A stretch of 64,000 nt of DNA from contig WFMF01000047.1 of assembly GCA_011033025.1 (NCBI GenBank), positions 62,001-126,000 of the forward strand, in the 5' to 3' direction. Positions 42,640 to 44,775 of this stretch are shown piece by piece. The notes under the pieces were generated by a model. That model was not told the DNA's origin. It saw only the letters and a list, made by a program, of their open reading frames with translations, and searched no databases. Source of the DNA: Beroe forskalii (Eukaryota; Ctenophora; Nuda; Beroida; Beroidae). Position 1 is the first letter of the stretch. Each line of letters starts with the position of its first letter. The position numbers and the translations under genes were made by a program.

Positions 42640-44775
42640 CTAATACTCTTCGTCATCTCCATCCTCAGCCTCATCTTCGAGGGAGTCAACTCCGACCTCC
42701 TCGTAATCTTTCTCCAGAGCAGCCAGATCCTCACGGGCCTCAGAGAACTCACCCTCCTCCATACCTTCTCCAACGTACCAGTGGACGAAGGCTCTCTTGG
42801 CGTACATCAGATCAAACTTGTGATCCAGACGAGCCCAGGCCTCAGCGATGGCAGTGGTGTTGGACAACATGCAGACAGCTCTCTGCACTTTAGCCAAGTC
42901 ACCTCCGGGGACAACAGTTGGGGGCTGGTAATTGATTCCAACCTTGAATCCGGTGGGACACCAGTCAACGAACTGGATGGTTCTCTTGGTCTTGATGGTG
43001 GCGATGGCAGCGTTGACATCCTTGGGGACAACGTCTCCTCTGAACAGCAGACAACAAGCCATGTACTTGCCGTGTCTTGGGTCGCATTTCACCATCTGAA
43101 AGTGAAACAGGTTTATTTCAATTAGTATTTCAAAACGAAAACAAACCAGTAAATTTTATAGATTAACTTAAATTCAAACTTTTACTAAAGACAGAAATTA
43201 GAAAGGACCACACCCATAACTCGAATAGAATGTGCGTCCAATAAATTTCGAGCTGTACCTGGTTGGCTGGTTCAAAGCAAGCATTGGTCAGTTCAGCAAC
43301 AGAGAGCTGCTCGTGGTAGGCCTTCTCAGCTGAGATGACAGGAGCATAGGTAGCCAGAGGGAAGTGGATCCTGGGGTAGGGCACCAAGTTGGTCTGGAAC
43401 TCAGTCAGATCAACGTTGAGAGCTCCATCAAACCGGAGTGAAGCGGTGATGGAAGACACGATCTGACCCATCAATCTGTTCAAGTTGGTGTAGCTTGGAC
43501 GTTCGATGTCAAGGTTTCGGCGACACATGTCGTAAACAGCCTCGTTGTCGACCATGAAGGCACAGTCGGAGTGCTCCAAGGTGGTGTGAGTGGTAAGGAT
43601 GGAGTTGTAGGGTTCAACCACAGCAGTTGAGATCTGAAAGATGGCGAAAATTAACATTCGTAAATTTGCAAGATGTAATTGTATAGGAGAACATCAAGAA
43701 ATTAGAAATAGAAATGGAATTGTCACTGTCAGACACGACCAGGGTAGGTACAGTTCAAGTTTTCAAAATTTAATGAGTTCGAATATTGTGGAGATTACGA
43801 AACACACCTGTGGGGCTGGGTAGACTGCGAACTCCAGCTTGGATTTCTTGCCGTAATCCACGCTCAGTCTCTCCAGGAGAAGGGAAGTGAATCCAGATCC
43901 AGTGCCACCTCCGAAGGAGTGGAAGACGAGGAATCCCTGGAGACCAGTGCACTGATCAGCCAGCTTCCTGATCCTGTCCAGACAGTTATCAACCATCTCC
44001 TTTCCAACTGTGTAGTGGCCTCGAGCGTAGTTGTTAGCGGCATCTTCCTGCGGACGGTATAAGGTCAAATTTTGTAGCTTAAATCGTAATGCACCAATAA
44101 AAAAATAGTAGAGTAGTAGTCAATGACCGACTGACCATGGTCTATGAGCAATTCCCGAGGCAAGTTTGCGAAAAATCGAGAATTGAATTGGCATTTCAAA
44201 GTGTTGGACATGGACAAGTGTCTTCCTTTCCAGTGATGAGCTGCTCGGGATGGAAGAGTTGACGGTAGGTTCCAGTCCTCACTTCATCCACTACACTTGG
44301 CTCCAGGTCCAGGAAGATGGCACGGGGGACGTGTTTTCCAGATCCGGTTTCACTGAAAAAGGTGTTGAAGGAGTCGTCTCCACCTCCAACCGTCTTGTCA
44401 GAGGGCATCTGACCATCAGGCTGGATTCCATGCTCCAGACAGTAGAGTTCCCAGCAAGCATTACCGATCTGGACTCCGGCTTGACCGATGTGGATTGACA
44501 GGCATTCACGCATGTTTGCAAGAGTTGCGTTATTGAGAAAATTCTTATTCATATTGGTAAACTTGATTAGAGGTAACTACCTACATGGAGAAATAGCTAG
44601 GAATAAGGAAAGAAATATGGGTTTCTACTAAATACTTTTAGATGATTTGATTTAGCTACGGAGCCCATCACTCCAAGGTTTTGTAATATGGTTGAATTCG
44701 AGAGAAGCACAGGATAGCAAGCAACATTTTATTCTAAATAATCTAATGGAGTAATGGAACATTAAAACCCACCAT
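42640..44775 (-). CDS. Alpha-tubulin, copy 1 (Tub1), with anomalous exon 2 borders
   Basis: Alpha-tubulin, the GTP-binding subunit of microtubules. Exons in transcript order: ATG at 44775-44773, 44510-44226, 44047-43808, 43633-43259, 43095-42640; 452 residues. It shows K40 (PSDK), the GGGTGSG phosphate loop, the catalytic Glu in DLTEFQTN, and an acidic tail ending in DDEEY with the C-terminal Tyr. It diverges more than its neighbours ([35 protein letters not shown]). The oddity is exon 2. It has no acceptor, because ATG preceded by ACTCTTGCAAAC (the same 15 bases as the end of exon 1) is fused straight to it. It also has no GT donor, because it runs from GGAAAG directly into GAAGA, the first bases of exon 3. 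Exon 2 therefore looks like a piece of spliced mRNA set between intron sequences. As written the gene may not splice; assembly or polishing with RNA data could also explain it. Confidence 0.85.

Follow-up and report, generated by a model that had tools for sequence, protein, structure and literature searches.

Spliced-mRNA sequence at intron edges of Tub1 and other housekeeping genes: a probable assembly artifact

Exon 2 of the alpha-tubulin gene Tub1 is bordered on both sides by the sequence of spliced mRNA, with both neighboring introns still in place. Since the same mark also appears where introns meet exons in several unrelated housekeeping genes, a technical error, with no new biology, is the most likely explanation. 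Specifically, the borders of Tub1 exon 2 are very probably an assembly artifact, caused by spliced-RNA sequence mixed into the correction or polishing data.

Structure of Tub1 and its paralogs

The window, which is the whole stretch of 64,000 nucleotides analyzed here, lies inside contig C547 of an assembly of 216 Mb and 1134 contigs. It contains four alpha-tubulin genes, of which Tub1 and Tub2 are on the minus strand and Tub3 and Tub4 on the plus strand. All four share their intron sites: one follows the start codon, and the others follow codons 96, 176, and 302.

On the minus strand, exon 1 of Tub1 (5′UTR and ATG) ends with ACTCTTGCAAACATG (44773..44787), followed by the donor GTGGGT. Without the copied 15-mer, intron 1 comprises 247 nt (44526..44772), which occur only once in the assembly. 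The 15 bases of the exon 1 end are then repeated at the place expected for the AG acceptor (44511..44525) and join directly to exon 2 (44226..44510; codons 2–96, 285 nt, frame open), whose first bases are CGTGAATG. Exon 2 ends in GGAAAG and is followed by GAAGA (44221..44225), at the place expected for the GT donor, and then by CACTTG. The five bases GAAGA are also the first of exon 3 (43808..44047), which starts with GAAGATGCC from position 44047 and is preceded by CCGCAG, the last bases of the remainder of intron 2 (44048..44220). Measured from the end of exon 2, intron 2 has 178 nt. Exon 4 (43259..43633) and exon 5, including the stop codon (42640..43095), complete the gene on the same strand.

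Neither AG nor GT is present at either edge of exon 2, and introns 1 and 2 are both kept. A sequence-only reading of the window had described this exon as flanked by spliced-mRNA junctions on both sides, with both adjacent introns retained and with a normal AG acceptor and GT donor in the other three copies. Our analysis agrees on all of these points: the 15-base end of exon 1 lies upstream and GAAGA of exon 3 downstream, introns of 247 and 178 nt are present, and the splice sites of exon 2 are ordinary in Tub2 (47820..48104, minus strand; AAG acceptor, GTTTGT donor), Tub3 (50207..50491, plus strand; CAG acceptor, GTTTGA donor), and Tub4 (54071..54355, plus strand; CAG acceptor, GTAAGT donor). 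AG also precedes every other alpha-tubulin match starting at codon 2.

Searched against all 216 Mb, the 15-mer that closes exon 1 gives two exact matches, both of them in Tub1, and the reversed control gives one; the 5′ part of the mark is therefore not due to chance. The 3′ side is weak when taken alone, as it comprises five bases (seven when the shared AG is counted), and an ordinary GTAAGA donor differs from GAAGA by a single base.

With its exons joined at the expected codons, Tub1 encodes a tubulin of 452 amino acids, internal stops being absent, and the protein agrees with that of Tub2 at 426 of 451 residues. The dN/dS values between Tub1 and Tub2–4 are 0.074–0.100, and the gene is under purifying selection. 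A literal reading that starts at the copied ATG runs into a stop after 105 amino acids, as might be expected if Tub1 were a decaying pseudogene whose borders arose by ordinary mutation and whose repeat is coincidental. We consider this extremely improbable, given that the exact 15-base junction match is found nowhere else in the 216 Mb, that the remaining exons and splice sites of Tub1 are intact, that dN/dS is about 0.1, and that the mark recurs in other genes.

The dS values of Tub1 exon 2 against the other copies (0.45–0.46) are somewhat above those of most other Tub1 exons (range 0.11–0.51), and the closest sequence to it elsewhere in the genome reaches 90% identity; nothing therefore points to another paralog as the source of the exon. 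A search of the assembly for an unedited second copy of the odd introns returned, for all eight pieces, only the pieces themselves. Poly(A) runs, which could be traces of RNA reads, were sought at the 3′ ends of Tub1–4 and are absent.

At the codons of the odd introns, the alpha-tubulin paralogs carry GT-AG introns that lack long repeats, which indicates that these intron positions are old. The direct repeats flanking the two Tub1 introns (15 and 7 bases) could also be viewed as target-site duplications. This interpretation was rejected because introns are found at the same codons in the paralogs and because the old splice sites mark where the repeats end or start.

Recurrence of the mark in unrelated genes

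The sequence-only reading had proposed looking for the same signature in other genes of the assembly, and the search turned out positive in CCT6, CCT7, CCT8, PSMA6, ATP5A, and other alpha-tubulins. The loci compared were the other alpha-tubulins together with the CCT and proteasome families, the latter two picked before the mark was known elsewhere; the ATPase loci were picked after this was known and before they were inspected. The mark was found by a scan and by reading junction by junction.

In several introns, the end of the upstream exon is repeated just before the next exon. The last 14 bases of exon 2 precede exon 3 in an alpha-tubulin on contig C401 (L020), with AG directly before the copy; 15 bases of the exon end precede the next exon in PSMA6 (L064), where the copy itself starts with CAG; and 13 bases do so in CCT7 (L059). 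In Tub1 intron 1, CA stands directly before the copied 15-mer. Elsewhere the intron opens like the exon that follows it. A further CCT7 intron begins with ten bases identical to the start of the next exon, the CCT6 exon at L057 continues into six bases of the next exon with GT absent, and introns in two alpha-tubulins (L012 and L018) begin with ATG, like the next exon. One intron each in CCT8 (L060) and ATP5A (L071) ends in CTG, like the previous exon. As in Tub1, the introns at these other odd junctions are retained. The affected loci lie on contigs C602 (CCT6), C2 (CCT7), C691 (CCT8), C179 (PSMA6), and C203 (ATP5A) and, for the alpha-tubulins, on C401, C762, and C1.

The gene names ATP5A, CCT, and PSMA6 rest on comparisons with solved homologs. 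Over six junctions checked in five genes (CCT zeta, ATP synthase alpha at two junctions, CCT theta, PSMA6, and CCT eta), the solved homologs align without gaps, indicating that the exon edges at those junctions are correctly placed. Other loci presumably encode V-ATPase B, ATP synthase beta, and V-ATPase A. The exon edges of the CCT, proteasome, and ATPase genes were at first placed in part with the mammalian sequences as a guide, and five of the genes were later checked as described.

In total, 89 introns with placeable edges were assembled from the tubulin, CCT, proteasome, and ATPase genes. The introns of L023 and one intron of L018 were excluded as poorly resolved, and junctions in L056, L057, L059, L060, L061, L067, L068, and L072 that were unclear or had a missing exon were left uncounted. 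For each intron we defined d as the length of the repeat spanning the junction, adding the bases shared by the exon end and the intron end to those shared by the intron start and the next-exon start. The null expectation was obtained by pairing each junction with every other intron, with 20,000 permutations. Among the 89 introns, d is at least 5 in 33 (16.9 expected), at least 7 in 15 (2.9 expected), at least 9 in 9 (0.51 expected), at least 11 in 7 (0.15 expected), and at least 14 in 4 (0.09 expected). The counts observed for d of at least 7, 9, and 11 were reached by none of the 20,000 permutations. Short repeats are ordinary and the signal sits in the long tail of d; a review gives repeats of at least 5 bp for 26% of conserved Drosophila introns (PMC3443670).

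Non-GT-AG ends occur in eight of the 89 introns, and every time the odd dinucleotide consists of the neighboring exon's bases, in register: GA, GA, AT, AT, and GC are like the next exon, and TG in three cases is like the previous exon. Both this identity of the non-canonical ends (8/8) and a match in register between intron edges and the neighboring exon that is far above chance are what contamination with RNA should produce. Fourteen introns have either d of at least 9 or a non-GT-AG end, Tub1 contributing two of them, while 75 introns of the same genes have neither. The seven introns added last (L039, L052, and L073–L075) are all GT-AG with d of at most 5. Two more, in L076 (d = 5) and L077 (d = 6), were read by eye outside the set of 89 and are also GT-AG. 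Intron length does not separate the odd introns from the rest (median 199.5 versus 188 nt, p = 0.66). An annotation-free scan for copied exon ends gave 40 frame-open GT matches, compared with 26–39 for nine control dinucleotides; because this is little excess, the scan served only for finding candidates. At the poorly resolved last junction of L057, an AG is missing near the match.

These counts also bear on whether the introns are real and have relaxed splice signals, or are recent gains whose flanking direct repeats were left by insertion or break repair. Genomes rich in non-GT/AG introns are known, with 95% of introns of this kind in Fritillaria (PMC13326754). A review gives a share of 43% for gained Daphnia introns flanked by short direct repeats (PMC3443670). 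The introns described here resemble the former in that some are non-GT-AG and the latter in being flanked by direct repeats. However, non-canonical ends are limited to 8 of 89 introns instead of prevailing across the genome, and each end type is set by the neighboring exon. None of the alpha-tubulin cases is at a new position, since the corresponding codons of the paralogs carry GT-AG introns that lack long repeats. In four of the longest cases the copy lies flush with the old splice site, and splice signals have been lost in eight introns. Neither precedent predicts odd ends that equal the neighboring exon where the paralogs are canonical, and we regard relaxed or newly gained introns as very improbable.

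Origin of the copied bases

Two causes had been suggested from the sequence alone, gene conversion by a cDNA and an assembly patched with RNA reads. The second is strengthened by the recurrence of the mark in CCT6, CCT7, CCT8, PSMA6, ATP5A, and other alpha-tubulins and by its agreement with spliced mRNA, while the first is unsupported, because conversion should remove introns, whereas here the introns stay and single-locus genes lose splice sites. The precise removal of introns from a converted tract is not seen, as the two Tub1 introns and those at the other odd junctions are present. The fragments of CCT6, CCT8, and ATP5A each match one locus, the next best matches being 47% and 43% identical for the two CCT genes and none being found for ATP5A.

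A broader version of this idea is that the germline itself was patched: a break repair or gene conversion templated by Tub1 mRNA or cDNA would have acted at exon 2, carrying the 15 and 5 bases with it, and similar events would have occurred in other genes. That the copies follow spliced mRNA exactly speaks for such an origin, as does a history of repeated intron loss among the alpha-tubulin paralogs. The loci L010, L011, L012, L015, L016, L017, and L021 differ in their intron complement, and L017 aligns without interruption over codons 2–440, from which repeated loss of introns in this family follows. Against it, the introns are retained, CCT6, CCT8, and ATP5A would have lost splice sites as single-locus genes, and about one intron in ten is affected (8/89 non-GT-AG). 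Reverse-transcriptase-mediated intron loss and cDNA gene conversion likewise yield sequence that follows the spliced message, but here introns are kept and the change is limited to 3–15 exon-adjacent bases. Altogether, patching of the germline seems improbable to us. This assessment extends to its more general form, in which repeated short repairs templated by spliced transcripts would copy 3–15 bases of the neighboring exon into intron edges of many housekeeping genes, leaving the introns in place, and the spliceosome would tolerate GA, AT, GC, and TG ends; we consider it unlikely in the same degree.

Correction or polishing with RNA-seq or cDNA reads is a general hazard for assemblies. The errors that it causes resemble the present mark in that bases of the neighboring exon appear at intron edges, in presumably well-expressed genes, while the intron body is kept; the difference is that here we infer the cause. 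In the extracts returned by a search of open-licence literature, RNA-based polishing of an animal assembly was not described, and a matching phrase appeared in one bacterial and one duck paper.

If the assembly was corrected in this manner, spliced mRNA sequence (from RNA-seq or cDNA) would have entered the data used for correction or polishing, and reads or k-mers spanning an exon–exon junction would overhang the exon edge by a few bases. The overhang would be forced onto the intron edge in Tub1 intron 2, L057, L012, L018, L060, and L071, and inserted beside the exon in Tub1 intron 1, L020, and L064. The outcome would be an intron with its body kept and with bases of the neighboring exon inside it, 15 and 5 of them in the case of Tub1 exon 2. 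The direct observations behind this proposal are the anatomy of the junctions, their recurrence in unrelated genes, their agreement with spliced mRNA, and the apparently unedited tandem copies in ATP5A described below; the correction or polishing stage and the kind of tool behind the mark are what we infer. Points against an artifact are the 75 ordinary introns among the 89, the last seven introns, all GT-AG, and the lack of poly(A) at Tub1–4.

At the ATP5A locus (L071), a segment made up of the end of the exon and the opening bases of the intron is present in eight tandem copies. After CATTGAGACTCAG, copies 1–4 continue with GCTGGTTGAGG (the true exon), GTAGGGGGAGG, GCTGGTTGAGG, and GTAGGTGGAGG, and copies 5–8 with GTAGGTTGAGG, GCAGGTCGAGG, GTAGATTGAGG, and GTAGGTTGAGG. 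The next exon starts with GCTGGTGACG. GTAGG is kept in four of the six copies that share 15–33 bases with the exon (four of eight overall). A six-base match to the next exon is seen in the true exon and in the copy that has 42 bases in common with it. The copies with GTAGG apparently represent the unedited state. This pattern may be the effect expected of short spliced-mRNA reads or k-mers, although copy 3 may have arisen from copy 1 by natural duplication.

If the mark is indeed an artifact, Tub1 would be transcribed and spliced normally, and exon 2 should be flanked by ordinary splice sites in the true genome. The assembly would then hold mRNA-derived bases at the splice sites of core genes, and gene models, intron-gain studies, and surveys of non-canonical splicing based on it would be misled. 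The match in register between intron edge and neighboring exon would offer a simple way of checking other assemblies for this fault. If the mark were real, it would represent a new route for RNA to change the genome.

Repeats and duplicated loci

Several other repeats were observed at the loci examined. In a V-ATPase subunit B-like gene on contig C739 (L070), the intron after ...LTGYITEGQ has a 65-bp tandem repeat in seven copies, including the exon, with the exon end and the donor as its unit; L071 holds similar exon-derived minisatellites. In a proteasome gene on contig C431 (L066), the exon start ATTGAGATAAACCCC occurs twice more in the intron, just upstream of the second exon read. A 56-bp minisatellite is found in the window at 14638–16117, and the minus strand of each unit resembles a short exon (GAGTTCTACCTGAGCTGGGATGCTCCTGACATTAG) with acceptor-like and donor-like (GTGAGTAGG) flanks. 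Long degenerate arrays with units of 17 bp (27424–28097), 15 bp (28696–29359), and 16 bp (34195–39019) take up much of the middle of the window.

Inverted gene copies separated by 1–55 kb on a single contig are found at L015 (C197), in C558 (175k/216k), in C1080 (383k/394k), and in C636 (374k/429k). Those at L015 are 97–99% identical, and the other three pairs have equal or nearly equal match scores. They are either real inverted duplications or fold-back assembly errors. The near-identical L015 copies differ at an intron end, where the match to the exon tail is 8 bases in one and 3 in the other. As the two main aligned blocks contain 18 differences, this observation is no more than suggestive.

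The beta-tubulin-like loci L053 (C471) and L052 (C601) are 99.3% identical over 1701 bp, one of them having an extra C in a coding run of C. Finally, positions 3376–4999 of L072 (C200) are rich in homopolymers in all frames (FFFF/KKKK/PPPP/GGGG), resembling a low-quality consensus.
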